64,000 bases of DNA, taken from Halovivax gelatinilyticus (lineage in GTDB: Archaea; Halobacteriota; Halobacteria; Halobacteriales; Natrialbaceae). The position numbers were made by a program, and so were the translations under genes. Below, one piece after another: positions 3,601 through 20,356 of the stretch. The notes under the pieces were generated by a model that was not told the origin of the DNA, did not search any database, and saw nothing but the letters and a program-made list of their open reading frames with translations. The stretch is from positions 1,377,992-1,441,991 of the forward strand of contig NZ_CP101322.1 in assembly GCF_024300625.1 (NCBI RefSeq). Direction: 5' to 3'. Every line of letters starts with the position of its first letter. Positions within the stretch are counted from its first letter, which is position 1.

Positions 3601-4746
3601 AAAGTCGTCCAGGAGGTGCATCGCGGCGGGGTGGACGCCGGCCGTCGCGAAGCCGTGATTGCGCGCACGTCCGTAGCGCAGCCGGAAGCCGCCGTTCGCG
3701 CAGGGGTGTGAAAAGACCGGACGGCCGGCGATCAGGTCGCGGAGGAACTTCTTCGACGGCTCGACGCGATTCGGACCGTCGAAGTCGGGGTCGTCGGATT
3801 CGACAGCAGTCACAGCGCGGTCGTTCTGGCCGTCACCGTCGTCCGCCTCAGCGTCGTCAGTATCGGCGCCGTCGACAGCGTCGGCGGTATCGTCGGCCGG
3901 TTCGTCGTAGTAGGTTCCGTCGATCAGATCCTGCAGCCATGGCCAGTCGACCTCGTCGAGCTGTGAGGTGTAGCGCTGGATCTTCGGCGCCTTGAGCGCG
4001 ATCCCTTCAGCGAGGACGAGACACATCCCGCCCCGGGCCGAGTTGGTGTCGACGCGTTCTAAATCCCGAAAGCCGGAGACTTCCTCGTCGCCGGTGGCCT
4101 CGCCGTCGAGCATGATCGGGAGGTTCCTCGCGATGAACTTCGTCTCCACGTCCTTCGGCGTGTACTGCAGGCCGGTCTCGGAATCGTAGAGCGAGACCTC
4201 CTCTGCGTAGCGTTCGATCTCGTCGTCGCGGGCCTGGTAGCTCTCGAGACCGACCAACGCGCGCGTGTAGTCGGCCACCAGCACGGACAGGGCTTGGGCG
4301 GTCCCGCCGGCCGACCTGATCGGGCCGGCGTAGTAGACGTTGACGAACTCGGTGCCGTCGCCGTTTTCTAAGAGTTCGACCCGATCGATGCCCTCGATCG
4401 GCGCCGCGACGACCCCCTCGGTCAGCAGCGCGACGGCCGTCCTGACCGCACCCTCGATCTTGCCGGCTTTCGTCTCGTACTCGCCGACCGTCCCCTCCGC
4501 AAAGTCCTTCGCGAGTTCCAGGGCGGCTTCCTCTCGGCTCATCTCGCCTTCGAGTTCGCGGACGCGCTCGGCGACGCCCTCGATTCCGAGGATGTTCTCG
4601 ACGCGGTCGGCCATGTCCCTGGCGACGGGAATCTCGACTTCGGGTTCCGGATCGCCGCCGCGAGCGCGGGCGCGCTGGGCGACGTCGAACGCGGTTTCGA
4701 GTTCGGCTTCGAGCGTTTCGAAGTACTGTGCGTCTTCCTCGCGCAT
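613..4746 (-). CDS. polC: DNA polymerase D large subunit (DP2), intein-containing precursor
   Basis: Large catalytic subunit of the archaeal replicative polymerase PolD, which pairs with the DP1 exonuclease subunit (not in this window). The 1377-residue precursor begins MREEDAQYFETLE. It has an acidic low-complexity insertion around residues 280-320, a zinc-finger cluster with CPDC, CPAC, CPEC and CDRC pairs near residues 695-745, and a C-terminal zinc site (CLDCG...CRECGG) near the end. The catalytic CDGDED motif is interrupted: KRRN is followed by an intein, and the extein resumes at CDGDEDCVML. Removing the 182 intein residues leaves about 1195 residues, normal for DP2. Its ATG lies one base after the stop of the upstream PPC-domain gene, so the two probably share a transcript. 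Confidence 0.97.
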   Translation of the reverse strand: MREEDAQYFETLEAELETAFDVAQRARARGGDPEPEVEIPVARDMADRVENILGIEGVAERVRELEGEMSREEAALELAKDFAEGTVGEYETKAGKIEGAVRTAVALLTEGVVAAPIEGIDRVELLENGDGTEFVNVYYAGPIRSAGGTAQALSVLVADYTRALVGLESYQARDDEIERYAEEVSLYDSETGLQYTPKDVETKFIARNLPIMLDGEATGDEEVSGFRDLERVDTNSARGGMCLVLAEGIALKAPKIQRYTSQLDEVDWPWLQDLIDGTYYDEPADDTADAVDGADTDDAEADDGDGQNDRAVTAVESDDPDFDGPNRVEPSKKFLRDLIAGRPVFSHPCANGGFRLRYGRARNHGFATAGVHPAAMHLLDDFLATGTQVKTERPGKAAGVVPVDSIEGPTVRLANGDVRQIDDPDTALELRNGVEKILDLGEYLVNYGEFVENNHALAPSSYVPEWWILDLEAAGVDIQALRDDPSIDLEHPDSERALEWATTYDAPLHPAYTYLWHDLSVEAFCDLAAAVEDGRIEDTDDGPVLELEHTDATREALETIVVEHRQREDRIEVDDPRPLLNSLGCEITKTGRIDRSWGDEDLSKRARTWGTDRPGDNAVEAVTEVAPFSIRERAPTRIGNRMGRPEKSESRDMSPAVHTLFPISEAGGAQRDVAKAGSHAETMSDTPGVVDVQVGRTRCPDCGEESYEHRCPACDERTEPDYRCPECDERIEPDDAGRVECDRCERTATCAEVRPVDINEAYRDALDSVGERENAFEILKGVKGLTSTDKLPEPIEKGILRAKHDVSSFKDGTVRYDMTDLPVTSVRASELDVTVGQLQALGYETDIHGQPLTHEDQLVELNVQDVVLSDGAAEHMMQTANFIDDLLVQYYGLEPYYELDERDELVGELVFGMAPHTSAATVGRVIGFTSAAVGYAHPYFHAAKRRNCFHPETKIQYEAEAGTVREEPIERFVESRLTDPREDDFGTLIQDLESSVLVPSINAEGVPVTRPVETVSKHPAPDHLVRIETRDGRSLTVTPDHTMVVWNDGLDRIPASELEIGDEIPTPSRADSTAGSNTRTRSEAIADGGRPGVDRVERTDIVPSDAEYTYCLTVSGTHTLVANGLHTGQCDGDEDCVMLLLDGLLNFSKSFLPDKRGGRMDAPLVMSSRIDPSEIDDEAHNMDIVSQYPHEFYEATLEQADPGEVDIKIGEDTLGTDDEYTGFRHTHDTTDIAMGPDLSAYKTLGSMMDKMDAQLEISRKLRAVDETDVAERVIEYHFLPDLIGNLRAFSRQETRCLDCGEKFRRMPLSEVCRECGGNVNLTVHQGSVNKYMDTAIQVADEFGCRDYTKQRLEVLEKSLESIFENDKNKQSGIADFM
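1360..1905 (-). other. Mini-intein within the PolD large subunit
   Basis: The region encodes residues 948-1129 of the precursor. It begins with Cys (CFHPETK, block A), has a block B core TVTPDHTMVV with the Thr-x-x-His pattern, and ends with block F/G residues YCLTV...HTLVANGLHTGQ followed by the +1 extein Cys. At 182 residues it is too short to hold a LAGLIDADG endonuclease, and no such motif is seen between blocks B and F. The C-terminal residue is Gln instead of the usual Asn, as in the Pyrococcus PolD inteins inserted at the same site, and the penultimate residue is Gly instead of His. The middle (about residues 120-150) is a hydrophilic linker where an endonuclease may once have sat. Confidence 0.93.
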
Positions 4747-5448: not shown

Positions 5449-7062
5449 ATGCTCCGTAGTAACACGACACGGCGTGAGGTGCTCGCCGCCGGTGGGGCGG
5501 TTTCGGCCTCCCTGCTGATCGGCTTTACCGGCACCGCCGCCGCACGGCAGGACGGAACGCTTCACATCACCCAGCAGGTCGAACCGGCCCACGACTACGA
5601 TCCGGTCGTTCTCAACGATGCCTACTCCGCGCGCATCGCGAACCACCTCTACGATGGACTCTACGAGTTCGGGCCGGAGCTGGACATCCATCCGAAAATA
5701 GCTGTCGACGAACCGGAGGTCGAAGAAGACGGGACGCGCTACATCGTCGAGATCCACGGTGGGATCGAGTTCCACAACGGGGATCCGCTCACCGCCGAGG
5801 ACGTGCTTCACTCGTTTACGGCACCGGTCGTAGAGGAGACGGACAACATCACGGAGTTCGACATGATCGACGTCGAGTCGTCGGACACCATCGACGAGCA
5901 TACGGTCCAGTTCGACCTCCTGGAGCCGTACGGGCCGTTCGACACGATGACGCTGGCGACGAACATCGTCAACAGCGAGCTTCGGATGGAAGAAGAGGGC
6001 ACGCCGCCGGCCGAGCGGTCGTACAACGTCGACAACCCCGTCGGATCGGGGCCGTTCGTCTACGTCGACCATCAGGACGGCGAGTTCTTCGACATGGAGC
6101 GGTGGGACGATTACTGGGACGAGCCGATGCCCGAACTCCAATCGGTTCGGTGGGTCGCGACCGAGGACGACGCGGCGCGCACGGCCCAGATTCGCGCGGG
6201 CGACACCGACATGGGACTGGGCATTCCACCGGCCGACTACGATTTGCTCGTCGAAGAGGACGACGTGCAGGTTCTCAACGAACAGAGCATCTCGTACTTC
6301 TACATCGCGTTCAACTGTAACGAAGGGCCGACGACCGAGCCCGAAGTGCGCAACGCGATCGAGTACACGTTCTCCGCGTCGACGTTCATCGAGGACATTA
6401 TCGGCGAGCTGGCCGAGAACGCGGTCGCCCCCATGGGGCCGGCGGTGGTAGAGGAGTGGGGCTTTCCGGCCGACGAGTACGCCGAGATGGAAAACGAATT
6501 CGATCCGGAACAGGCCGCCGACATGCTGGAGGGCCACGACGTCGACGGCTGGGAACCCGAACTCATCGCGCCGCCGGACGACATCCGCATCTCGCTGATG
6601 GAGCGCGTCGCCGCCCGACTCGGCGAGCTCGGACAGTTTGGCGTCGACGTCAACCCGCAGGTTCGCAGCCTCTCGTGGGCGGAGTTTTTAGAGCGGTACA
6701 CGACCGGCAACGAGAGTGACTACGCCATGTACACCCTCGGGTGGACCGGCGGCCCCGACCCCGACGCGTACTACTGGCCGCTCTTTCACGAGGAGAACGC
6801 GGGCATCACGCAGGGACACTACTACGAGAATCCCGAGTTCCACGAGATGCTGCGCAACGCGCGCGAAAGCGTCGACCAGGACGAGCGGTTCGAACTGTAC
6901 GACGAGGCGACGCGCACGCTGCTCGAAGACAAGGTCCACGTCCCGACCTACAGCATCCACAACAGCGTCGCCGCGATGCCGGACGTCGAGGACATCGAGG
7001 TCCACCCGGACTCGGGGACGAAACCTCGGGTGGTTTCCGACCACCACAACACCTCGGTCTGA
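5449..7062 (+). CDS. dppA: Peptide ABC transporter substrate-binding protein (copy 1)
   Basis: Extracytoplasmic solute receptor of SBP family 5 (DppA/OppA type) with 537 residues. The N-terminus has a twin-arginine signal (TTRREVLAAGG, Arg8-Arg9) and a hydrophobic stretch ending near TAAARQ, predicting Tat export of a folded protein. Unlike its paralogue at 12498, it has no lipobox cysteine, so how it stays at the membrane is unclear. Family hallmarks include YDGLYEFG, GIEFHNGDPLTAEDVLHSF, DNPVGSGPFVY, FNCNEGP and LGWTGGPDPDAYYWPLFH. It opens a five-gene operon and is followed by the two permeases and two ATPases. Peptides are the most likely substrate, but members of this family also bind nickel, sugars or antibiotics. 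Confidence 0.93.
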   Translation: MLRSNTTRREVLAAGGAVSASLLIGFTGTAAARQDGTLHITQQVEPAHDYDPVVLNDAYSARIANHLYDGLYEFGPELDIHPKIAVDEPEVEEDGTRYIVEIHGGIEFHNGDPLTAEDVLHSFTAPVVEETDNITEFDMIDVESSDTIDEHTVQFDLLEPYGPFDTMTLATNIVNSELRMEEEGTPPAERSYNVDNPVGSGPFVYVDHQDGEFFDMERWDDYWDEPMPELQSVRWVATEDDAARTAQIRAGDTDMGLGIPPADYDLLVEEDDVQVLNEQSISYFYIAFNCNEGPTTEPEVRNAIEYTFSASTFIEDIIGELAENAVAPMGPAVVEEWGFPADEYAEMENEFDPEQAADMLEGHDVDGWEPELIAPPDDIRISLMERVAARLGELGQFGVDVNPQVRSLSWAEFLERYTTGNESDYAMYTLGWTGGPDPDAYYWPLFHEENAGITQGHYYENPEFHEMLRNARESVDQDERFELYDEATRTLLEDKVHVPTYSIHNSVAAMPDVEDIEVHPDSGTKPRVVSDHHNTSV

Positions 7063-7179: not shown

Positions 7180-8178
7180 ATGACCCTGCTGCGGTACACG
7201 ATCAGTCGGCTTCTGCAAGCGGTTCCGGTACTGGTCGGTATCGCGTTCATCACGTTCGTCCTGGTCAACTCGATGCCCGGCGATCCGGTTTCGATCATGG
7301 TCGAAGGTCAGGAGGTCGACCAGGAGACCATCGACATGCTGGAGGCTCGCTACGGGCTCGACGAACCGTTCCACGAGCGGTTCATCACGTACATGGCCGG
7401 ATTGGCCCAGGGCGACCTCGGGTACAGCATCCATCACAACATGCCGGTCGCCGAGTTGATGCTGATTCGACTCGGTCCCACCCTGCTACTCGTGCTCTCG
7501 GCGTTCGCCTTCGCGCTCGTGACGGCGGTGCCACTCGGCGTGCTGGCCGCCAAGCGTCGAAACGAGCCCACGGATCACTTCTCCCGGATCATCGCGCTGA
7601 TCGGCGTCAGCACGCCGTCGTTCTGGATCGGTATCATGCTGATACTCATCTTCGCGGTGTGGCTCGGCTGGCTTCCGTCCGGTCGGCTGGTCTACCCGTG
7701 GCGCGATCCGGCTCACTACGGCTACGGCGGTCAGCTCGAGTTGTGGTACCAGACGATCAGACACCTGCTGTTGCCCATGGTGGCGCTCGGAACCCTCCAG
7801 ATGGCGACGATCATGCGGATCGAACGCTCCTCGATGGTCGAGAGTCTGCAAGAAGAACACGTCAGGCTCGCCCGAGCGTACGGCGTCCCCGAGCGACGGG
7901 TGCTCCGAAAGCACGCCTTCCGACCCGCGCAACTGCCGATCATCACGATCGTCGGCCTGAACCTCTCGACGGCGCTCGGCGGGGCGGTGCTGATCGAGAC
8001 GGTGTTCGAGATAAACGGCATGGGCCGGTTGCTGATCCAGTCGATCGAAAACTTAGACTACCAGGTGGTGATGGGCGTGACGATCGTGCTGGCGACCATC
8101 TTCGTGATCGGCGTCATCGTCACGGACATCTCGTACGCGTACATCGACCCGCGCGTCAGTTACGGTGATCGAGCGTAA
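7180..8178 (+). CDS. dppB: Peptide ABC transporter permease DppB-type (copy 1)
   Basis: A 332-residue inner-membrane permease of the binding-protein-dependent transport family. It starts MTLLRYTISRLLQAVPVLVGI, a typical DppB first helix, followed by LPSGRLVYPW in the middle and five further hydrophobic segments. The EAA-type loop that contacts the ATPases is near residues 225-255 (VRLARAYGVPERRVLRKH). It lies 117 bp after the receptor gene and only 2 bp before the second permease. With DppC it forms the heterodimeric channel. Confidence 0.95.
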   Translation: MTLLRYTISRLLQAVPVLVGIAFITFVLVNSMPGDPVSIMVEGQEVDQETIDMLEARYGLDEPFHERFITYMAGLAQGDLGYSIHHNMPVAELMLIRLGPTLLLVLSAFAFALVTAVPLGVLAAKRRNEPTDHFSRIIALIGVSTPSFWIGIMLILIFAVWLGWLPSGRLVYPWRDPAHYGYGGQLELWYQTIRHLLLPMVALGTLQMATIMRIERSSMVESLQEEHVRLARAYGVPERRVLRKHAFRPAQLPIITIVGLNLSTALGGAVLIETVFEINGMGRLLIQSIENLDYQVVMGVTIVLATIFVIGVIVTDISYAYIDPRVSYGDRA

Positions 8179-8180
8179 TC

Positions 8181-9167
8181 ATGGCCACGACCGAAGGACA
8201 ACTCGACGGCGACGGCGGCGACGAACCGCAGATCGGGTGGCGAAACACCTACCGCCAGGTCAAAGCGGACCCGACGGCCCGGTGGGGACTCTACATCATC
8301 GCCCTGGCCACGTCGGTCGCGGTCTTCTCGGCGGTCGACGCCAACCTCTCGCGGCTGACGTTCGACGCCTACCAGGACTACACGATGGGGGAGTGGCTGC
8401 CGATACTCGAGAATCCGGAGACACTCCCGCCGCCGGGCGAGAGCGAGCCATACCAACCGCCCGCGTTCGCCGACGGCGGCGCCTGGGAGAATCCGCTCGG
8501 AACCGACGAACACGCCCGAGACTACCTCTCGCGAATTATCTACGGCGCCCGCGTCTCGATGGCGGTCGGATTTTTCGCGACCGTGCTCGGATTGACCGGC
8601 GGCGTCCTCATCGGAGCGGTGGCAGGCTACTACGGCGGCTGGATCGACGACGTCCTGATGCGCTTCGTCGAGACGATTTACTCGATCCCCGCGCTGGTGC
8701 TGGTGATCGTGTTCACGATCTTCGTCAGCGGGGGCAATCCGGACGTCATCTACGCGATCGTCGGCGTCGGCATCGCGTCGGTCCCCGTCTTCGCCCGAAT
8801 CATACGCAGCCGCGTGTTGAGCGTCCGGGAGATGGACTACGTCGAAGCCGCTCGCGCGGCCGGCGTCAAGGACCGTCACATCATCTGGCGTCACGTCGTC
8901 CCGAACAGCTTCGCACCCGTGCTGGTGTACGCGACGCTCCAGATCGGCTTCGCGATCCTGATCGTCGCCGGGCTGTCGTTTCTGGGCTACGGCGCGCAGC
9001 CGCCGACGCCCGACTGGGGCCAGATGCTAAACTACGCGCACGGGCAGATGCACGTAAACCCGTGGATGAGCATCTGGCCCGGCATCGCGATCTTGATCAC
9101 CATCATGGGGTTCAACCTCTTCGGCGACGGGTTGCAAGACGCTCTCGACCCCCGAATAGACAATTGA
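8181..9167 (+). CDS. dppC: Peptide ABC transporter permease DppC-type (copy 1)
   Basis: A 328-residue partner permease. A hydrophilic N-terminus with QIGWRNTYRQVK precedes the first transmembrane helix. A long loop contains the family marker HPLGTDEHARD-like text (here NPLGTDEHARDYLSRIIYGAR), and the cytoplasmic EAA loop is VEAARAAGVKDRHIIWRH. The C-terminus GDGLQDALDPRIDN is the standard ending for DppC. The central loop around residues 60-95 is longer than in bacterial DppC, as is common in halophiles. Confidence 0.95.
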   Translation: MATTEGQLDGDGGDEPQIGWRNTYRQVKADPTARWGLYIIALATSVAVFSAVDANLSRLTFDAYQDYTMGEWLPILENPETLPPPGESEPYQPPAFADGGAWENPLGTDEHARDYLSRIIYGARVSMAVGFFATVLGLTGGVLIGAVAGYYGGWIDDVLMRFVETIYSIPALVLVIVFTIFVSGGNPDVIYAIVGVGIASVPVFARIIRSRVLSVREMDYVEAARAAGVKDRHIIWRHVVPNSFAPVLVYATLQIGFAILIVAGLSFLGYGAQPPTPDWGQMLNYAHGQMHVNPWMSIWPGIAILITIMGFNLFGDGLQDALDPRIDN

Positions 9168-9188: not shown

Positions 9189-10298
9189 ATGAACGCCGAC
9201 ACCATCCTCACGGTCGAGAATTTGAAGACGCAGTTCTACACCGAACAGGGCGTCGTCCGGGCCGTCGACGGCATCTCCTTCGACGTCCGGGCGGGCGAGA
9301 TCGTCGGCATCGTCGGCGAGAGCGGGGCGGGAAAGAGCGTGGCCACCAACAGCATCATCCGGCTAATCGAGTCGCCGGGCGAGATCGTCGACGGCGAGAT
9401 CACCTACATGGGCGAGACGACGATCGTCGGCTTCGAAGAACGGAGCGACGGAACACTCGTTCCCCGCGACGAGATGCTCTCTAACGAGGCCATGCGCCGG
9501 GATATTCGCGGCAACGAGATCGCCATCATCTTCCAGGATCCGATGGAGTCGCTGAATCCGGTCTACACCATCGGCGGCCAGCTCCGCGAGTTCATCGAGC
9601 TCAACCGCGAACTGGACGGCATCGATCCGAAGACCGAAGCGATCCGAATGCTCCGGGAGGTCGGCATTCCCGAGCCGGAGGCGCGCTACGACGATTACCC
9701 CCACGAGTTCTCGGGCGGGATGCGCCAGCGCGTCCTGATCGCGATGGCGCTCGCCTGCCGTCCGAACCTCATCATCGCCGACGAGCCGACGACGGCCCTG
9801 GACGTCACCGTCGAGGGTCAGATCCTCGATCTGGTGGCGGATCTCCAGGAGCAGTACGGGACGAGCTTCATCTGGGTGACCCACGACATGGGCGTCGTCG
9901 CCGAGATCGCAGACCGGGTCAACGTGATGTACCTCGGGAAGATCGTCGAACAGGGCGAGGTCGACGACATCTTCCACGAGACGAGTCACCCGTACACGAA
10001 GGCGCTGCTCGATTCGATCCCGCGTCCCGACCGGACCGTCGACGCGCTCGATCCGATCGTCGGCTCTATCCCGAGCCCGATCGATCCGCCGCCGGCCTGT
10101 CGGTTTCACACGCGGTGTCCCGACGCGCGGCGAGCGTGCACCAGGATCGAGCCGACGTACGTCGAGATCGACCAGGCCACGGACCACCGGACCGCGTGCA
10201 TCAAGTACGACGACGTCGGCTACTGGGAGAGCACGCCGCTCGAACACGCGAAAGAACAGGAGACCTCCTACGTCGAACGGCCGGGTGGTGACGGATGA
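9189..10298 (+). CDS. dppD: Peptide ABC transporter ATPase DppD-type (copy 1)
   Basis: A 369-residue ATP-binding subunit. Walker A is GESGAGKS (residues 43-50), the Q-loop is [10 protein letters not shown], the signature is FSGGMRQR (174-181) and Walker B is LIIADEP (194-200). The C-terminal oligopeptide/dipeptide domain has [14 protein letters not shown] and a later TACIKYD, the four-cysteine pattern that in characterised relatives can hold an Fe-S cluster. A roughly 20-residue insertion between Walker A and the Q-loop ([19 protein letters not shown]) is shared with the second copy. Its end overlaps the DppF start by 4 nt, implying translational coupling. Confidence 0.95.
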
Positions 10299-11626
10299 GC
10301 GACGTCGTCGACCCGATCATCGAAGTGCGAAACCTCTCGAAGTACTTCTCGGCCCAGAGCGGCTACGTCGCTAGCGTCCTCGGCTCGCCGGACGTCCAGG
10401 CGGTCGACGAGGTGACCCTGGATATCCGCCGGGGCGAAACCCTGGCGCTCGTCGGCGAGAGCGGTTGTGGAAAGAGCACGCTCGCACGAACGATCCTGCA
10501 ACTCGATCGACCGACCGCTGGAACCGTCAGGTTCGACGGCGCGGACCTCACGGCGATGAGCGATCGGGAGCTCAGACCGCTCCGACGGAACATGCAGATG
10601 ATCTTTCAGGACCCGCACTCGTCGCTGAATCCGCGGATGAAAGTCGGCCAGATCATCGAAGAGCCGATGCTGGCCCACGATCTGTACGACGGCGACGAGC
10701 GCACCCGGCGGGCCAAGGAGTTGCTCGAGAAAGTCGGCCTCGACGCCGACCACTACTACCGGCACCCACACGAGTTCTCGGGCGGCCAACGACAGCGGAT
10801 CAATCTCGCGCGCGCGTTCAGTACCGATCCCGACGTCATCATGTGCGACGAGCCGACGTCCGCGCTAGACGTCTCCGTGCAGGCGCAGGTGCTGAACGTG
10901 ATGGACGAACTCCAGGACGAGTTCGACGTGACCTACCTGTTCATCTCTCACGATCTGAGCGTCGTCAGGTACATCGCCGACCGCGTCGCCGTGATGTACC
11001 TCGGTCACATCGTCGAACTGGCCGAGAAGGAAGAACTCTTCGAGAATCCACGGCACCCGTACACGCGCGCCCTGCTCGACGCGATACCCGTTCCGGATCC
11101 GCGAGAGCGAGACGCCAGAGCGTCGCTCGAAGGCGACGTCCCCAGCCCGATCGATCCGCCGACGGGCTGTCGGTTTCACACGCGGTGTCCTCGCCTCATC
11201 CAGCCCGGCACCCACGACGTCGAGTCCGCGGAACTGTCGGCGGCGGCTCGTGAGGCGGTGCTTCCCGCGTACGATATGCCAGACGAGATCTGGGACGACG
11301 TGCGGACGTTTACGCGTGCGGTGAAACGGCGATCGTTCGGGCTGGAAGAGATCGAAGCGTCGGAGGCTGCCGTCACGGACTTCGTCGAGGCGGAGTTCTT
11401 CCCCGACGGCCGGCCGAGCGGGCCAGCTAACGGCGTAATTCAAGAGGTGATCCGGTTACTCGCCGACGGTGCGTGGGACGAAGCGAGACCTCTCGTTCGG
11501 ACGACGTTCGAGGCGACGAGCGTCTGTGCGACACGACGGCCCGCCTACGAACTCGAAAGCGAGATCGGATCGGACCGGCACTTCGCTGCCTGCCACCTCC
11601 ACGCAGAGTCCGGTCGAAGCGAGTGA
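10295..11626 (+). CDS. dppF: Peptide ABC transporter ATPase DppF-type with long C-terminal insertion (copy 1)
   Basis: A 443-residue second ATPase. Walker A is GESGCGKS (54-61), followed by [17 protein letters not shown], the signature FSGGQRQR and Walker [13 protein letters not shown]. Usual DppF proteins have about 325-350 residues. Here the cysteine-rich tail is split: CRFHTRC lies near residue 291, and the matching SVCATRRP...FAACHLH resumes near residues 409-434. The inserted 108 or so residues (roughly 300-408) are acidic and predicted mostly helical. The second-copy DppF has the same arrangement. The gene ends 42 bp from a convergent gene. Confidence 0.93.
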
Positions 11627-11650
11627 ACGGACGGTCCATCGTCTCGGTGA

Positions 11651-11696
11651 AGTCGTATCGTCGTCCGGTCAGTGCAGTCGTATCGTCGTCCGGTCA
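11651..11696. repeat. Direct repeat of 21 bp at the convergent 3' ends
   Basis: Two identical copies of a 21-bp unit beginning agtcgtatcg occur at 11651-11671 and 11676-11696, with a 25-bp period. The right copy overlaps the last codons of the minus-strand gene (DRTTIRL), and the left copy lies beyond its stop. The array fills most of the space between the dppF stop and the convergent gene. Confidence 0.85.
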
Positions 11697-12172
11697 CTAA
11701 CCGAATCTCCCGCCGTCGCGAGATAGGCCGCGATTTCGTACTCGCCGGGATCGGCCTCGATCCAACGCGTCGGCGAACCGGTTCGCTTGAATCGACCGTC
11801 CCAGGTTCGGACGATCCGACGCGTTTCGAAGCCACGGAACTCGACGCTGTCACGGTGGGCCGACAACCGACGGGGCTCGTCGCTCGCCTCAAGATACCCG
11901 TCGACGGTCCAGCCCCAGAGTCGCCCCCCTTCGGTCGCGACGGTGATCGGAACCGGGAGACGGTTCGTGAACGCGATCGTGAATTCGACCGGTTCGCCGA
12001 CCGCGTAGGTGGATCGATCCGTCGTCACCGACACAGAGACGGCGACTCTGGCAACCCGCTGTGGAACGAGGGATGCGATACGTCGTCCGAACACCCGCTG
12101 TCGTGACTCGTCCAGTTCTCTCGGTGCCGATTTACCGCGGTTCGGACGCGACCGTGGACCCGATTTCATAGT
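11669..12172 (-). CDS. BsuPI-like beta-sandwich protein of unknown function (copy 1)
   Basis: A 167-residue protein convergent with dppF copy 1. The start is taken as the ATG at 12172 (MKSGPRSRP) because a minus-strand TATA (ctttatac, 12215-12222) is too close to the ATG at 12205. The body (about residues 45-165) is a predicted beta-sandwich: VSVTTDRSTYAVGEPVEF, TNRLPVPITV, LWGWTVDG, RRIVRTWDGRF, then DPGEYEIAAYLAT. This order (Y-x-x-GEPV, TN, W-WxxDG, TWDG, PGxYxxxAxL) resembles the BsuPI intracellular proteinase inhibitor fold. No export signal is seen, so it should be cytoplasmic. A clear paralogue sits in the same place beside the second transporter operon (18693-19184). The function is not established. 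Confidence 0.8.
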   Translation of the reverse strand, partial: TMKSGPRSRPNRGKSAPRELDESRQRVFGRRIASLVPQRVARVAVSVSVTTDRSTYAVGEPVEFTIAFTNRLPVPITVATEGGRLWGWTVDGYLEASDEPRRLSAHRDSVEFRGFETRRIVRTWDGRFKRTGSPTRWIEADPGEYEIAAYLATAGDSVSDRTTIRLH

Positions 12173-12497
12173 GACGTCGGTGGCGGAAGGTACCACGACG
12201 TTCACCGCTCACCAGTATAAAGGGCCGATACTCGCCCACAGTTTTCCCGTAATATAACGCGGGTTCGACGATGATGCTACCCAACACGGATAAAGAGATA
12301 CATAAAAGGAAGATGTTGCCTCGATGTGTCCGTCGAGGGCAGTAGCCACACACAGACCATAATTCTCTATTTTTGTTCAGTATTTTTTATTGAACGCCCG
12401 TTGAAGGTGCAGTATCGAGTAGTCCGTAAATAACGTTGCGGCAGACAGTGACACAGATCGATAGGTATAATACCCATGGTGAGAGCAGATTGGTAGT
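12173..12497. promoter_or_regulatory. Divergent intergenic region with two promoters
   Basis: This stretch holds no credible gene. It contains a minus-strand TATA (12215-12222) for the BsuPI-like gene, and a plus-strand TATA with ggtataatacc at 12464-12474, 24 nt before the ATG at 12498, which predicts a leaderless transcript for the second peptide receptor. An AT-rich block around 12360-12395 (including attttttatt) is of unknown role. Confidence 0.65.
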
Positions 12498-14078
12498 ATG
12501 GCACACGATATGCCGCAACTCACACGGCGACACGTGCTTGGCTCGGGTGCTGCAATTTCCGCCGCAGCGATCGCAGGGTGTTTCGGTGGCGACGATGACG
12601 ACGATAGTTTCATCCACATCACCCAGTCACAGGAACGTGACGAGGACTTCGATCCCGTCATTGCGAACGACGCCTACAGCGCGCAGGTGTACCAGCTCGT
12701 CTACGACGGACTCTACGAGTTCGGCGAAGGACTCGAGCTCGAACCGAACGTCGCGACGGACTTTCCGGACGTCGAAAACGACGGAACCCGATACCTCTTC
12801 GAGATTCACGAGGGGATCGAGTTCCACAACGGCGACGAACTGACGGCGTCGGACGTCGCCCACTCGTTTACGGCCCCGGTCGAAGAGGACACGGAGAACG
12901 CCTCCAGCTACAACATGATCGAGGACATCGAGATCATCGACGACCACCAGCTTCAGGTCGACCTCTTCGATCCGTACGGTCCGTTCGAACTCCAGACGAT
13001 GGCGGTCACGATCGTCAACGAAGACGTCAGAACGGACGACCCCGAGGACTACAACACGAATCCAGTCGGCTCCGGTCCGTACACGTGGGGCGACTGGTCG
13101 GCGAACGAGTTCGCCGAGGTCGAACTCTGGGACGACTACTGGGACGACGACCTCGAGTTGAACATCGATACGGTCCGGTTCGAAGCCCACGCCGACGAGG
13201 CCGGCCGCATCTCCGACATCGACGCCGGCAACACGGACGTCGCCATGGACATTCCGAACGCCGACTGGGAGGACTTAGACGCCAACGACGACGTCACCGT
13301 CACCGGCGCCGAGAGTCCGACGTACATGTACATGGCCTTCAACTGTAACGAGGGGCCGACGACGAACCCTGAGGTTCGTCGGGCGATCTGTCACGCGTTC
13401 TCGATGCAGGACTTCATCGAAACGCACGCCGAACACGTCGCGTCGCCGATGTACAGTCCGGTCCCGCCGGTCGTCAACGAGGTCTGGGGCTTCCCGGAAG
13501 ACGAGTACCGGGACATGCTCCCCGAGTACGATCCGGACGAGGCCGAAGCGCTTCTCGACGAGCACGCCCCCGACGACTTCGAACCGACGATCATCGCGCC
13601 GGAAGGGCTCAGAGCCCAGCTCGCCGAACGGATCGCGACCCGTCTCGACGAGATCGGTTACGGCGCGGACGCCCAGATCCTCTCGTTCGACGCGCTGGTC
13701 GACACCTACGTCACCGGCGAATACGAAGACTACGCGATGTACTTCCTGGGATGGACCGGCGGTCCCGACCCGGACTACTACCTCTACCCGCTCTTCCACG
13801 AGAGCCAGGAGGAAGTAAACCAGGGCCACTTCTACGAGGGAAGTGACGGCTTCCACGACGCGATCGCGGAAGGTCGCGAGACCGCAGACCAGGACGAGCG
13901 CTACGACATCTACGAACCGGTGATCCGAGAGATTGTCGAGGAACTCCCGGCGCTGCCGGCGTTCACGCAGGACAACACGATGGCGATCGGCCAGTACGTC
14001 GACGGCCTCGAAGCGCACCCGAACGTGGCGTCGAACCCCAACCTGGCGTCCAAACACTACGACGTCTCGGTGGAATAA
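12498..14078 (+). CDS. dppA: Peptide ABC transporter substrate-binding lipoprotein (copy 2)
   Basis: A 526-residue SBP family 5 receptor, a clear paralogue of the protein at 5449. The signal has both a twin-arginine motif (LTRRHVLGSG, Arg10-Arg11) and a lipobox IAGC with Cys28, predicting a Tat-exported lipoprotein anchored outside the cell. A run of aspartates (GGDDDDDSF) follows as a tether. Shared core motifs are YDGLYEFG, GIEFHNGDELTASDVAHSFTAPV, NPVGSGPYTW, FNCNEGPTT and FLGWTGGPDPDYYLYPLFH. It is the first gene of the second five-gene operon and probably delivers peptides to the permeases downstream. Confidence 0.94.
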   Translation: MAHDMPQLTRRHVLGSGAAISAAAIAGCFGGDDDDDSFIHITQSQERDEDFDPVIANDAYSAQVYQLVYDGLYEFGEGLELEPNVATDFPDVENDGTRYLFEIHEGIEFHNGDELTASDVAHSFTAPVEEDTENASSYNMIEDIEIIDDHQLQVDLFDPYGPFELQTMAVTIVNEDVRTDDPEDYNTNPVGSGPYTWGDWSANEFAEVELWDDYWDDDLELNIDTVRFEAHADEAGRISDIDAGNTDVAMDIPNADWEDLDANDDVTVTGAESPTYMYMAFNCNEGPTTNPEVRRAICHAFSMQDFIETHAEHVASPMYSPVPPVVNEVWGFPEDEYRDMLPEYDPDEAEALLDEHAPDDFEPTIIAPEGLRAQLAERIATRLDEIGYGADAQILSFDALVDTYVTGEYEDYAMYFLGWTGGPDPDYYLYPLFHESQEEVNQGHFYEGSDGFHDAIAEGRETADQDERYDIYEPVIREIVEELPALPAFTQDNTMAIGQYVDGLEAHPNVASNPNLASKHYDVSVE

Positions 14079-14165: not shown

Positions 14166-15167
14166 ATGGGACTACTCAAGTACACGATTTTTCGGTTCCT
14201 CCAGTCGATACCTGTCCTTCTCGGTATCTCCGTGATCGTATTCGCACTCGCGAATCTGGGGCCGGGGGATCCGGTTCGAATGATGTTACACGGACAGGAG
14301 TACGACCAGGAGATGGTCGAAGCGATCGAGGCGCGGTACGGACTCGACCGACCGGTTCACGAACGGTATCTGACCTACATGGCCGGCATCTTCCAGGGCG
14401 ACCTGGGAGAGAGCATCCACCGAAACCGGACGGTGCTCGGCCTCATGGGCGACCGGATCGCACCGACGCTGCTTCTGGTTCTGTCCGCGTACGCGTTCGC
14501 ACTCGCGACGTCGATTCCGCTCGGAATCCTGGCCGCAAAGCGACGAAACAAGCCCGAAGACCACGTCTCACGGATCATCGCGCTGATCGGCGTGAGCACG
14601 CCGTCGTTCTGGATCGGGATCATGTTGATCCTGCTCTTTGCCGTGACGCTCGGCTGGTTGCCTTCGAGCGGGCTCGTCTACCCGTGGCGCACCCCGGCAG
14701 ATTACCGCGGAATCGGTAGTTATCCGGAGCTGTACTACGAGACGATTCGCCACCTGCTGTTGCCGATGATCGCCCTCGGGACGCTCCAGATGGCGACGCT
14801 GATGCGCGTCGAACGGACCCAGATGATCGACTCGCTCCAGAAGGATTACGTCAAGCTCGCCCGCGCGTACGGCATCTCGGAACGAACGATCCTGCGCAAA
14901 CACGCGTTCCAGGTCGCCCAGCTTCCGGTGATCACGATCGTCGGTCTGAACCTCTCGACGGCGATCGGCGGGGCCGTCCTCACCGAGTACGTCTTCAACA
15001 TAAACGGGATGGGGCGGCTGTTCATCGAATCGATCGACCAGAACGATTACCAGGTCACCATGGGAATCACGATGTTGCTCGCGACGCTGTTCGTCATCGG
15101 CGTCATCATCACCGACATCGCGTACGCGTACGTCGATCCGCGAGTGACCTACGGGGAGAGTGAGTGA
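14166..15167 (+). CDS. dppB: Peptide ABC transporter permease DppB-type (copy 2)
   Basis: A 333-residue permease closely matching the copy-1 DppB throughout, for example IIALIGVSTPSFWIGIMLIL and TIVGLNLSTAIGGAVL, with the EAA loop VKLARAYGISERTILRKH. It has six hydrophobic segments and ends AYVDPRVTYGESE. Its stop overlaps the possible GTG start of dppC. It should pair with the DppC that follows, although swapping with copy-1 subunits cannot be excluded given their similarity. Confidence 0.95.
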   Translation: MGLLKYTIFRFLQSIPVLLGISVIVFALANLGPGDPVRMMLHGQEYDQEMVEAIEARYGLDRPVHERYLTYMAGIFQGDLGESIHRNRTVLGLMGDRIAPTLLLVLSAYAFALATSIPLGILAAKRRNKPEDHVSRIIALIGVSTPSFWIGIMLILLFAVTLGWLPSSGLVYPWRTPADYRGIGSYPELYYETIRHLLLPMIALGTLQMATLMRVERTQMIDSLQKDYVKLARAYGISERTILRKHAFQVAQLPVITIVGLNLSTAIGGAVLTEYVFNINGMGRLFIESIDQNDYQVTMGITMLLATLFVIGVIITDIAYAYVDPRVTYGESE

Positions 15168-15169
15168 CG

Positions 15170-16165
15170 ATGGCTATCGGAGAATCTCAACTCGATCAAG
15201 ACGGCTCGCAGGGTGGCGACGGCGTCGACGCGAAGGTCGGCTGGCGCTACACGCTCCGAAAGATCAAGCGCGATACGACGGCACGCTGGGGGCTGTACGT
15301 CGTCGGATTCGTCATGCTCGTCGCCGCGTACGCGACGGTCGACACGCACCTCTCGCGGTTTACGTTCGGGATGGCGTCCGATTACGCCGTCGCGAACGCC
15401 GTCCCGTTCCTGGACCATCCGACCCACATTCCGGAGCCGGGCGAAGGAGAATCGCACGTCCCGCCCGCGTTCTTAGCGGAGGGGACCTGGTCACACCCGC
15501 TCGGGACGGACCCGGACGGGCGAGATTACCTGACGAGGATCATTTACGGCACCCGCGTCTCCGTTAGCGTCGGCATCGGCGCGACCGGGTTCGCCCTGTT
15601 CTTCGGGACGATCGTCGGTGCCGTTTCGGGCTACTACGGCGGCTGGGTCGACGACACGCTCATGCGCGCCGTCGAGATCCTCTACGCGATCCCGCCGCTG
15701 ATCCTCATCATCGTCATCACGGTGTTCGTCGGCGATACGAGCCTTCACTGGATCGTCATCGGCGTCGGCGTCGCCTTTATTCCGGTCTTCGCTCGGATCA
15801 TACGCAGCCAGGTGCTTTCCGTCAGGGAGATGGATTACATCGAGGCGGCCCGGGCGGCCGGGGTGAGAGACCGACACATCATCTTCAAACACATCGTCCC
15901 GAACAGCTTCGCGCCGTTGCTGGTGTACGCGACGTTACAGATCGGCGTGACGATCCTCATCGTCGCCGGCCTCTCGTTCCTGGGCTACGGCGTCCAGCCG
16001 CCGACGCCCGACTGGGGACAGATGCTCAACATCTCACACGGCTACATGCACTCGAACATCTGGCTGTCGATCTGGCCGGGCGTCGCGATCATGATCACGA
16101 TTATGGGCTTCAACCTCTTCGGCGACGGGCTGCAAGATGCCTTGGACCCCCGCATTGACAACTAA
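15170..16165 (+). CDS. dppC: Peptide ABC transporter permease DppC-type (copy 2)
   Basis: A 331-residue partner permease. The ATG at 15170 (MAIGESQLDQ) is preferred, although a GTG six bases earlier (15164) overlaps the dppB stop and would give two more residues. Features match copy 1: HPLGTDPDGRDYLTRIIYGTRVS, EAA loop IEAARAAGVRDRHIIFKH, GYGVQPPTPDWGQML and the terminal GDGLQDALDPRIDN. Most differences from copy 1 lie in the extracytoplasmic loop around residues 60-100. Confidence 0.95.
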   Translation: MAIGESQLDQDGSQGGDGVDAKVGWRYTLRKIKRDTTARWGLYVVGFVMLVAAYATVDTHLSRFTFGMASDYAVANAVPFLDHPTHIPEPGEGESHVPPAFLAEGTWSHPLGTDPDGRDYLTRIIYGTRVSVSVGIGATGFALFFGTIVGAVSGYYGGWVDDTLMRAVEILYAIPPLILIIVITVFVGDTSLHWIVIGVGVAFIPVFARIIRSQVLSVREMDYIEAARAAGVRDRHIIFKHIVPNSFAPLLVYATLQIGVTILIVAGLSFLGYGVQPPTPDWGQMLNISHGYMHSNIWLSIWPGVAIMITIMGFNLFGDGLQDALDPRIDN

Positions 16166-16167
16166 CA

Positions 16168-17304
16168 ATGAGTACCGAACCACTCCTACGCGTCAGGAAT
16201 CTCAAGACACAGTTTTTCACCGAATCGAACACCGTCCGCGCCGTCGACGGCATTTCCTTCGACGTCTACGAGGGAGAGATCGTCGGCATCGTCGGCGAGA
16301 GCGGCGCGGGAAAGAGCGTCGCGTCGATGAGCCTCATGCGCCTCATCGAGAGCCCCGGCGAGATCGTCTCGGGTGAGATCACCTACAGAGGCGAGACGAT
16401 TTTCGCCGTCGAGGAGCGGTCCGACGGCGAACTCGTCGAACGTGAGGATATGCTCACGAACGAGGAGATGCGCGATGGGATTCGCGGAAACGAGATCGCC
16501 GTCATCTTCCAGGACCCGATGGAATCGCTCAATCCAGTCTTCAAAGTGGGCGCACAACTTCGTGAGTTCATCGAAGTGAACCGAGACCTCCCGAAGGCCG
16601 AGGCGAAGGCGGAAGCCATCGATATGCTCCGCGAGGTCGGCATTCCCGAACCGGAAACCCGCTACGACGAGTATCCACACCAGTTCTCGGGCGGGATGCG
16701 CCAGCGCGTACTGATCGCGATGGCGCTCGCCTGCCAGCCGAACCTCATCATCGCCGACGAGCCGACGACGGCCCTGGACGTCACCGTCGAGGGCCAGATC
16801 CTAGACCTCGTCGCCGACTTACAGGAGAAATACGACACGAGTTTCATCTGGGTGACCCACGACATGGGCGTCGTCGCCGAGATCTGCGACCGGGTCAACG
16901 TGATGTACTTGGGGGAGATCGTCGAACAGGCGCCGGTCGACGAACTGTTCTACGAGACGAGCCACCCGTACACGAAGGCGCTGCTCGACTCGATGCCGCG
17001 CCCAGACCGGACGGTCGAGGAGTTGAACCCGATCACCGGCATCATGCCCGAAGCGATCAATCCACCGTCCGGCTGTCGGTTTCATCCGCGGTGTCCGGAC
17101 GCCAGAGAGATCTGCCAGCGCGTCCACCCCGAACCGAAGGCGATCGAGCGTCAGGGTGAGTATCCTCACCGAACCGCCTGCGTACAGTACGAGCCGTTCG
17201 ACGTCGGCTACGACGGGAGCGCACCGCTTTCGACCGAGGCGACGGCGAAGGCGCGTGCGGAGCGTTCACCCACCGCCTCGATCGACTCCGGAGGTGACCA
17301 ATGA
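16168..17304 (+). CDS. dppD: Peptide ABC transporter ATPase DppD-type (copy 2)
   Basis: A 378-residue ATPase starting two bases after the dppC stop. It has Walker [10 protein letters not shown]-loop [10 protein letters not shown], signature FSGGMRQR and Walker [13 protein letters not shown]. The C-terminal domain contains [14 protein letters not shown] and a later TACVQYE. The same charged insertion as in copy 1 precedes the Q-loop ([20 protein letters not shown]). A short acidic and serine-rich tail (about residues 350-378) is specific to this copy. It overlaps the next gene by 4 nt. Confidence 0.95.
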
Positions 17305-18644
17305 GTAGCGATCGCCAGCGCGTCGAATCCGACCGATCGGCCGGCTCGGACGCCTCCGGCGAGCCGCTGTTGAAGGTCGAGGGGCTGAAAAAGTACTTTT
17401 CGTCCGATACCGGCATGTTCGACGGCCTGACGCTCGATTCGGGCTCGTTCCCGCCGGTCTCGTTCGAGCGCGAGACGGTCAAAGCCGTCGACGACGTCTC
17501 GTTCGAGATTCGCGAGGGAGAGACGCTCGGACTGGTCGGCGAGTCGGGCTGTGGAAAGAGTACGCTCGGACGGACGATCCTCAGACTCGTCGAGGCGACC
17601 GAGGGGAGCATCTACTTCAAAGGCCGGGATCTCGCGCAACTGTCGGGCTCTGACTTACGAGAGATGCGCTCGGAGATCCAGATGATCTTTCAGGATCCGC
17701 AGGCGTCGCTCAATCCGCGGATGAAGGTCGGTCAGATCGTCGAAGAGCCGATGAAAGCCCACGGAATGCTAGACGACGAGGGGCGAGAAGATCGGGCGAA
17801 GATGCTCTTAGAGAAGGTCGGCCTCGATCCGCACCACTACAATCGTCACCCGCACGCGTTCTCCGGCGGCCAGCGCCAGCGGATCAACCTCGCGCGGGCG
17901 CTGTCGGTCAACCCGGACTTCATCGTCTGTGACGAACCGGTCGCCTCGCTCGACGTCTCGATCCAGGCGCAGGTGTTAAACACGATGGAGTCGCTCCAGG
18001 AGGAGTTCGGGCTCACGTACCTCTTCATCGCCCACGATCTGTCCGTGATTCGGTACATCTCCGATCGGGTCGCCGTCATGTACCTCGGTAACATCGTCGA
18101 ACTCGCGGAGAAAGAAGAACTCTACGAGAACCCGAGCCACCCCTACACCAGGGCGCTGCTCGATGCGATTCCCGTGCCCGATCCGCGCGGGCGCGAGACG
18201 CGCGGCGTCTTGGACGGCGAGGTTCCGAGCCCGATCGATCCGCCGTCGGGCTGTCGCTTCCGAACGCGGTGTCCGAAGCTCATCGCACCGGCAGAGTACG
18301 GTCTGACGGACGCAGAGTGGACCGAAGTGAGGCGGTTCATGCGCGCCGTCGATCGGCGAACCATCGAACCGGCACCGGCGAACGAGCTAACCGCTCAGTT
18401 CTTCGAAACGGGGCCGCCCGACGGCGAGGCCGGCGAGATCGTCTCCGAGGCGCTCTCTCAGATCGCGAGCGACGAGGCGGACGACGCCGACGGCTATCGC
18501 GACGAAGACTGGGACGAAGCCGCCACCTACCTCGTCGAGTCGTTCGCCGAGCAGAGCATCTGCGCGACAGAGCACCCGGATTACGAGATCGAACCGGAGT
18601 ACGGAAGCGGAGTTCACCTGGCCGCCTGTCACCTCCATCGGTGA
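17301..18644 (+). CDS. dppF: Peptide ABC transporter ATPase DppF-type with long C-terminal insertion (copy 2)
   Basis: A 447-residue ATPase with Walker A GESGCGKS, signature FSGGQRQR and Walker [13 protein letters not shown]. Between strands 1 and 2 it carries an extra segment ([16 protein letters not shown], about residues 38-53) that copy 1 lacks or has in shorter form. Like copy 1, the cysteine-rich tail is interrupted: CRFRTRC lies near residue 317, and SICATEHP...LAACHLHR resumes near residues 418-447, with about 95 acidic residues between. The insert starts similarly in both copies ([21 protein letters not shown] against [14 protein letters not shown]...). It ends 48 bp from the convergent paralogue gene. 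Confidence 0.93.
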
Positions 18645-18692: not shown

Positions 18693-19184
18693 TTACCGGA
18701 GCGTAATCGTCGTCGAATCGGTCGGACGCTTCGACGCCGGCGCCGTCGCGAGAAACGCCGTCAGTTCGACCTCGCCGGGGTCGGGCAGTTTCGATTCGTC
18801 CCGACGGCCGACGTGGCGAATGTAGCCGTTCCACTCGATCGAAACACGGCGAGTCTGGCCGGCGCCGAACGGAAAGACAGCGGGCGTGCGTGAGAGGTAC
18901 CGTCGCTCGGTCGTCGCCTCCGTGTGGCCGTCGACGGCCCACCCCCAGCGTCGCTGTGTCGGCGTCGGGATCGAGACCGCGACGGGGAGTCGGTTGGTAA
19001 ACGAGACGGTGATCGGAACGGGTTCGCCCCTGTCGTAGCTGTCGCGATCGGTCGAGATAGAGACGGATATGGCCCGTTTTGCGACGGCGTTGGGCACCAG
19101 CTTTCCGAGTCCCCGACTGAAGACGGTTCCCTGCGTCTCGAAGCCGGGTACGTCGCCCGTTCGGGTTCGCGGATCGCGATCCAT
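18693..19184 (-). CDS. BsuPI-like beta-sandwich protein of unknown function (copy 2)
   Basis: A 163-residue paralogue of the protein at 11669-12172, aligning over its full length: RDSYDRGEPVPITVSFTNRL, RRWGWAVDGH, RRVSIEWNGYI, DPGEVELTAFLATA, and an ending STTITLR against RTTIRLH. It has no signal peptide. It is convergent with dppF copy 2, exactly as copy 1 is with dppF copy 1, so the gene was evidently duplicated together with the transporter. The BsuPI-like (proteinase-inhibitor) assignment rests on motif order only and is tentative. Confidence 0.8.
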   Translation of the reverse strand: MDRDPRTRTGDVPGFETQGTVFSRGLGKLVPNAVAKRAISVSISTDRDSYDRGEPVPITVSFTNRLPVAVSIPTPTQRRWGWAVDGHTEATTERRYLSRTPAVFPFGAGQTRRVSIEWNGYIRHVGRRDESKLPDPGEVELTAFLATAPASKRPTDSTTITLR

Positions 19185-19501: not shown

Positions 19502-20356
19502 ATGAAGGTAGCCGACGCGATGACACCCCGCGACGACGTGGTGACGGCGACGCTTCCGGGTACGCGCAGCGACGTGCTCGAGTACCTCCAGGAGCGGTCG
19601 TTCTCTTCGGTTCCGGTGATCGCCGACTCGGACGACGGTTCCGAGTACCGCGGGTTGATCTCCCGGCAGTCGCTGATCGACCAACCTGACGAAGATCAGC
19701 TCGTGATGTTGATAGAGGACGTGCCGACGACGACCGCAGAGACACCCGTCGAGTCGGTCGCCCAGCTCATGGTCGAGGAGGGAGCCCGGCGCGTCCCCGT
19801 CGTGGACGGTTCGTTCGAGGGGATCGTCACAGTCACTGACGTCGTTGGGGCCATCGCTCGGGACAAGGTCGACGTCGACGCCGAAGTTGGCGAGTACGCG
19901 ACTCGCGACGTCAACACGACGCACGCCGAGGCGCCGCTGCTCGTCGCGGAGGCCGAACTCTCCTACGCGAACGTCCCCTACACGATCGCGCTCGACGACC
20001 ACGGCGAGATGGCCGGCATCCTCACCGAAGTCGACGTCATCGACGTCGCGCGGATCGTCGAGGGCGAGGAGTCGACGGGCAACAACTTCCCCGACCAGGA
20101 CGCCGAGTGGTCCTGGGAGGGCGTCAAGGCCGTCGGGAGCCGGTCACTTCCGACGCGCGACATCGAGTTGCCGAACGGGCCGGTACGCGAGTTCATGTCC
20201 GATGACGTGGTGACGGTGACGAAGGCCCGGTCGGTCACGGACGCCGCCCAGGCGATGATCAGTAACGACATCGAACAGATCCCGCTCGTCACGGGCGAAC
20301 GCCTCGTCGGCATCGTCCGGGACGTCGACCTCCTGAGAGCCCTCTATGACCGGTGA
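19502..20356 (+). CDS. Four-CBS-domain protein
   Basis: A 284-residue cytoplasmic protein made of two Bateman modules, i.e. four CBS motifs: residues 1-60 (VADAMTPRDDVVTA...VPVIAD), 68-120 (VESVAQLMVEEGARRVPVV), 125-185 (YATRDVNTTHAEAPL...MAGILTEVDV) and 225-284 (REFMSDDVVTVTKARSV...QIPLVTGERLVGIVRDVDLL). CBS pairs usually sense adenosyl ligands such as AMP, ATP or SAM. There is no fused catalytic domain, so it presumably regulates a partner. It overlaps the glyS start by 11 nt, a coupling that may be meaningful or only organisational. Confidence 0.93.
   Translation: MKVADAMTPRDDVVTATLPGTRSDVLEYLQERSFSSVPVIADSDDGSEYRGLISRQSLIDQPDEDQLVMLIEDVPTTTAETPVESVAQLMVEEGARRVPVVDGSFEGIVTVTDVVGAIARDKVDVDAEVGEYATRDVNTTHAEAPLLVAEAELSYANVPYTIALDDHGEMAGILTEVDVIDVARIVEGEESTGNNFPDQDAEWSWEGVKAVGSRSLPTRDIELPNGPVREFMSDDVVTVTKARSVTDAAQAMISNDIEQIPLVTGERLVGIVRDVDLLRALYDR

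Follow-up and report, generated by a model that had tools for sequence, protein, structure and literature searches.

The stretch of DNA analysed here, 64,000 nucleotides of Halovivax gelatinilyticus (the window), contains two five-gene operons for peptide ABC importers, and each is faced by a small gene, named bsu1 and bsu2. Dpp/Opp peptide importers are widespread nutrient pumps. The question that the locus raises is what a small protein encoded beside such a pump does. An earlier note on this DNA proposed that bsu1 encodes a BsuPI-like protease inhibitor, which would protect imported peptides or regulate peptidase activity.

The bsu genes and their family

The reading frame of bsu1 that had been given as 11669-12172 is real, but its start included one codon (ACG) too many; the best start is the ATG at 12169, which gives a frame of 166 codons. 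By our own reading of the sequence, a TATA-like TTTATA is better placed for this ATG than for the GTG at 12205. Each bsu gene is convergent with the last gene of the operon that it faces, with a gap of 42-48 bp between the two stops (Table 1). The motifs listed earlier were found in both copies, as YAVGEPV/YDRGEPV, FTNRLP, WGWTVDG/WGWAVDG and RTWDG/IEWNG, except that the last one (PGEYEIAAYLAT/PGEVELTAFLAT) reads PGEYEI in bsu1 and PGEVEL, not PGEYE, in bsu2. A recent tandem duplication of operon and gene within the window was considered and rejected, as bsu1 clusters with Natronoglomus and bsu2 with other Natrialbaceae.

Table 1. Features of the bsu loci in the window; positions are counted from its first nucleotide.
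Feature	Position	Strand	Basis
Operon 1 substrate-binding protein (SBP_bac_5)	5449..7062	+	PF00496, E 1.5e-56
Operon 1 permease, DppB-like	7180..8178	+	ORF, operon position, homologues
Operon 1 permease, DppC-like	8181..9167	+	ORF, operon position, homologues
Operon 1 ATPase, DppD-like, oligo_HPY tail	9189..10298	+	PF00005, PF08352
Operon 1 ATPase, DppF-like, long Cys2-Cys3 insert in C-terminal Cys tail	10295..11626	+	PF00005, PF08352, tail analysis
bsu1, Ig-domain protein, 166 aa	11669..12169	-	ORF, family alignment; AF2 pLDDT 84.8
TATA-like TTTATA upstream of bsu1 (putative)	12216..12221	-	Read from sequence
Operon 2 substrate-binding protein (SBP_bac_5), divergent from bsu1	12498..14078	+	PF00496, E 9.3e-64
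Operon 2 permease, DppB-like	14166..15167	+	ORF, homologues
Operon 2 permease, DppC-like	15164..16165	+	ORF, homologues
Operon 2 ATPase, DppD-like	16168..17304	+	ORF, homologues, tail analysis
Operon 2 ATPase, DppF-like, tail insert as in operon 1 DppF	17301..18644	+	PF00005, PF08352
bsu2, paralogue, 163 aa, about 42% identity to bsu1	18693..19184	-	ORF, alignment; AF2 pLDDT 84.4

Some other features of the window were observed along the way. A 25-bp direct repeat (92% identical, 11644-11693) covers the final codons and the stop of bsu1. The gene divergent from bsu2 (19502-20356) encodes a protein with four CBS domains, and its position is conserved in Natrialbaceae. The gene for the large subunit of DNA polymerase D (613-4746, reverse strand) carries an apparent intein-like insert (CFHPETK...VANGLHTGQC).

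Homologues of the bsu proteins with intact frames were found in 37 of 61 related genomes, at 29-55% identity. A second, named genome collection, with species in common with the first, was scanned with alignment A2 for clade A only and yielded 37 loci, all of them in haloarchaea. A wider sample of the phylum gave just two weak partial matches outside the haloarchaeal order. As far as sequence searches of these collections reach, the family is confined to haloarchaea. Judged from the alignment, bsu1 is no chance reading frame, because its homologues keep intact frames and the motif columns are near-invariant. The tree splits the family into three well-supported clades (A, B and C), and the motif WxWxVDG is present in all 52 members compared with none of 18 haloarchaeal BsuPI proteins. 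Searches of Pfam, NCBIfam and PDB sequences returned no confident family for the bsu proteins, which are unnamed in Pfam and NCBIfam, and a literature search, conducted mostly outside the subscription journals, found no paper on them.

The absence of a signal peptide, which had been claimed for the window copies, holds throughout the family. In a hydropathy scan of all members, the Kyte-Doolittle mean over 17 residues reached a maximum of 1.50 and never exceeded 1.5, and no signal peptide or transmembrane helix was visible. This supports a cytosolic location, as predicted from sequence. An amphipathic membrane-docking helix in front of the Ig domain was also sought and rejected, there being no excess over shuffled sequences.

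Linkage to peptide importers

The association with a peptide importer turned out to be far stronger than the window shows. A peptide ABC operon adjoins the bsu-family gene at 36 fetched loci out of 40 and at 34 of the 37 loci of the second collection. Of the other four fetched loci, one has its operon 8 kb off with an insertion in between. So that loci would not be picked by eye, a census listed every bsu-family gene and every DppF-type tail in 37 genomes. It was found that 36 of 38 family genes lie no more than 2.5 kb from a DppF-type 3' end, all 36 facing that end, with a median gap of 143 bp; the chance expectation for such proximity is about 0.6% per gene, in genomes that are related and so do not represent independent events. 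The remaining two lie 5.9 kb from DppF on the same strand, which would fit an upstream placement like that in Haladaptatus (L131). The arrangement differs by clade: the gene is convergent with the operon in A, mostly co-directional and after the operon in B, and upstream of it in C (L131). The link has therefore either survived rearrangements or been re-established after them. Clustering of neighbouring reading frames, antisense frames included, showed that the A and B neighbourhoods have only the bsu gene and the transporter genes in common. A functional tie of the family to the importer is very likely.

The tie is not obligatory. Among the 61 genomes, 25 contain both an A-type gene and an A-type permease, four the permease alone, one the gene alone and 31 neither, a count that includes one permease under the search cut-off, added by hand. 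Importers of the same clade occur without a bsu gene (genomes G002, G003 and G020; loci L145-L147), and a truncated copy stands beside an intact operon in another genome (G026; L148). Conversely, full-length copies without a nearby operon were found at L053, L107 and L126. Where the operon is gone, the copy at L065 is truncated and that at L053 is without the near-invariant Gly of WGW. The gene is accessory and not an essential subunit, because importers without the gene and orphan copies both exist.

The subunit that the gene might serve was approached by comparing pairwise distances at 21 loci that have the flanking CBS gene in common, with partial correlations correcting for that gene. The bsu distances correlated with those of the DppF-type ATPase (r 0.80; partial 0.74) and the DppD-type ATPase (r 0.78; partial 0.78), and with those of the permeases and the substrate-binding protein (SBP) at r about 0.2-0.33. 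The contrast is sharpened by two loci of this kind, from Natrinema ejinorense and N. gelatinilyticum (L114 and L118), where a distant set, most like that of Halorubrum-type operons, has taken the place of the SBP and the two permeases, and both ATPases and the bsu gene were retained. With these two loci omitted, the partial correlations were 0.76-0.79 for the ATPases versus 0.45-0.59 for the rest. Linkage alone could yield part of this gradient, and the locus pairs are not independent. The comparison can only suggest that bsu divergence follows the ATPases more than the permeases or the SBP, because the operon genes rank in the same way by their physical distance from bsu. We hold, with about equal parts of confidence and doubt, that bsu1 and bsu2 belong to a family of small cytosolic single-Ig-domain proteins that is dedicated to Dpp/Opp importers and acts at their ATPase side.

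A rather doubtful competitor is that the bsu protein is a cytosolic binder that receives or buffers imported peptides at the exit of the pump, using the WxW motif as its ligand site. The linkage to peptide-type importers, being near-universal, would agree with such a role, as would the invariance of the aromatic pair and the Asp in WxWxVDG. However, a gene that stayed with the ATPases while the SBP and the permeases were swapped is a poor fit for a substrate-specific binder, and no comparable Ig domain that binds peptides in the cytosol is known to us.

It is improbable, too, that the gene is a mere genomic neighbour, either limiting expression of the operon through a convergent overlapping 3' transcript or hitch-hiking with no function in transport. 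The stops in the two window copies are just 42-48 bp apart, which would allow such an overlap, and the full-length orphan copies are also consistent with a neighbour. Against this, conservation across the clades is strong at the protein level, and the B and C clades are linked to the operon in other orientations. An accessory protein acting at the ATPase side remains the preferred reading.

A predicted Ig-like fold and the proposed protease inhibition

An AlphaFold2 model of bsu1, built with 37 natural sequences, has a mean pLDDT of 84.8; most of residues 37-166 are above 90, and the N-terminus is of low confidence. The bsu2 model is similar (84.4). As modelled, the fold of both is an Ig-like sandwich. 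Among solved structures, 3ISY, the Bacillus subtilis protein IPI (BsuPI), is the best or joint-best whole-domain match for both copies, aligned over nearly the full length (bsu1: Z 10.0, rmsd 3.3, 107 residues, TM by target 0.69; bsu2: Z 9.9, rmsd 3.5, 110 residues, TM by target 0.72). The earlier guess of a BsuPI-type fold was therefore correct as far as the Ig-like group is concerned. The score of 3ISY is tied with those of RbmA (Z 10.2 for bsu1; 9.6 for bsu2), CARDB (9.8; 9.1-9.2) and Spo0M (9.7; 9.4). RbmA of Vibrio cholerae, whose Ig-like domain is the nearest structural neighbour of IPI itself (PMC3901451), is a secreted biofilm matrix protein, unlike the bsu proteins. Membership of the Spo0M or arrestin families was rejected, as no full-length profile match was found: the Spo0M profile (PF07070) matched the family with a probability of 1-2%, and the match to Arrestin_C (PF02752) covered about 27 residues and was below the cut-off.

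The claim that the proteins belong to the BsuPI family itself did not stand. In the Pfam search, PF12690 matched neither bsu1 nor bsu2. Weak matches were found in 12 of 37 homologues (best E 0.0025), and four individual members scored 16.4, 15.1, 13.9 and 11.7 bits, all under the curated cut-off of 22.9 bits; a true BsuPI gene elsewhere in the same genome scored 100.9 bits. The loop motif [ML]FxQ is present in all 18 true haloarchaeal BsuPI proteins and in none of the 52 bsu-family members. A profile of 13 true haloarchaeal BsuPI proteins matched the bsu family with a score of 44.0, whereas 200 column shuffles reached 26.7 at most, yet a haloarchaeal CARDB profile, used as a control, scored 44.3, which showed that the BsuPI score was not specific. 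The profile probabilities for BsuPI and CARDB were 91.6 and 92.2 for alignment A3, 94.1 and 92.6 for the mixed alignment A1, and 79.5 and 33.7 for clade B, which alone leans to BsuPI (score 37.3 vs 28.4). Since the two profiles match alike, the bsu family is placed in the Ig-like superfamily and BsuPI is not singled out. The CARDB domains (PF07705; 3IDU/2KL6) resemble the bsu proteins in structural score (Z 9.1-9.8), in profile score and in a common VDG position. In the haloarchaeal genomes searched, CARDB matches were found mostly in long open frames, unlike the small bsu proteins, and PF07705 is absent from the Pfam families listed for A3 and A1 members.

The inhibitor role fared no better. 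The fold class shared with IPI, the weak PF12690 matches and a BsuPI profile score well above the shuffled controls would all suit a BsuPI-like intracellular inhibitor, whether it shields imported peptides or holds a cytosolic peptidase in check. However, the segment of IPI proposed to inhibit subtilisin is residues 62-68 of its wedge loop, conserved in BsuPI as MF[T/A]Q (PMC3901451), where MFTQ was located by counting along the alignment, and this is the motif that all 52 members are without. The sub-threshold PF12690 scores and the equal fit of CARDB count against it as well, and no recurring peptidase was found among the clustered neighbour frames of the bsu loci. Moreover, IPI is perhaps a competing substrate and not an inhibitor, and its family has been removed from MEROPS (PMC3901451). 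Protease inhibition by the bsu proteins is thus unlikely, and the tempting annotation as a protease inhibitor is corrected here. What the bsu proteins have in common with IPI is a small, single Ig-like domain that can be cytosolic; they differ from it by their own WxWxVDG motif and by their linkage to ABC importers. No ABC operon occurs in the 16 kb examined around the host's true BsuPI gene.

Two observations concern the true BsuPI genes. That of the host (G000:C1:2714805-2721152; L133) lies 2.4 kb from an SBP_bac_5 gene, with no ABC genes nearby. In 7 of 14 genomes examined, SBP-like tblastn matches occur in the 16-kb stretch around the true BsuPI gene.

A candidate partner of the importer ATPases

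In the reading that we prefer, the bsu protein would bind the cytosolic ATPase module DppD/DppF through a putative contact formed by the strand and loop of the conserved WxWxVDGxxEA, and the bound protein may adjust the assembly, stability or ATPase activity of the importer. More tentatively, it could be a sixth part of the archaeal peptide importer, an Ig protein of the cytosol that attaches to the DppD/DppF motor and governs import.

The DppF proteins beside bsu genes have an insert of 60-100 residues between Cys2 and Cys3 of their Cys tail. As an observation on haloarchaeal DppF-type ATPases in general, such a long insert was found in 130 tails from 33 of 37 genomes. It was rejected as a specific docking site, since 94 of the 130 tails have no bsu neighbour and only 36 are beside one. 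In another conceivable role, the bsu protein would be a sensor, of a cytosolic ligand or of redox, that stabilises the DppF Fe-S tail, whose oxidation disrupts the E. coli complex. This role would draw on the insert and on the need of that complex for the Fe-S domains of DppD and DppF to stay stable (PMC12136057), but it is most unlikely, given how common the insert is in DppF without a bsu neighbour.

A dedicated cytosolic partner of Dpp/Opp importers was not described in the literature searched. The bsu family provides a concrete candidate for one, present in dozens of haloarchaea, and, if the proposal is true, haloarchaea have a previously undescribed class of importer-specific regulators.

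Cytosolic proteins that act on importer ATPases are known from other systems, namely EIIA-Glc on MalK and the PII proteins on nitrate and urea importers (PMC10710835). By analogy, the bsu proteins would likewise act as cytosolic proteins on ATPase subunits, as EIIA-Glc does on MalK and PII on NrtCD and UrtDE; the likeness to EIIA-Glc on MalK or PII on NrtCD would be one of logic and not of fold. EIIA-Glc and PII have folds unrelated to that of the bsu proteins, are global regulators, are not encoded with one importer and do not serve peptide importers. The window operons are of the same type as DppABCDF of E. coli, in which five genes encode a peptide importer and both ATPases likewise have Cys tails. 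In the accessible text of the study of that complex, a sixth accessory protein is not mentioned, and it is the Cys-cluster (Fe-S) tails of DppD and DppF that hold the complex together (PMC12136057).
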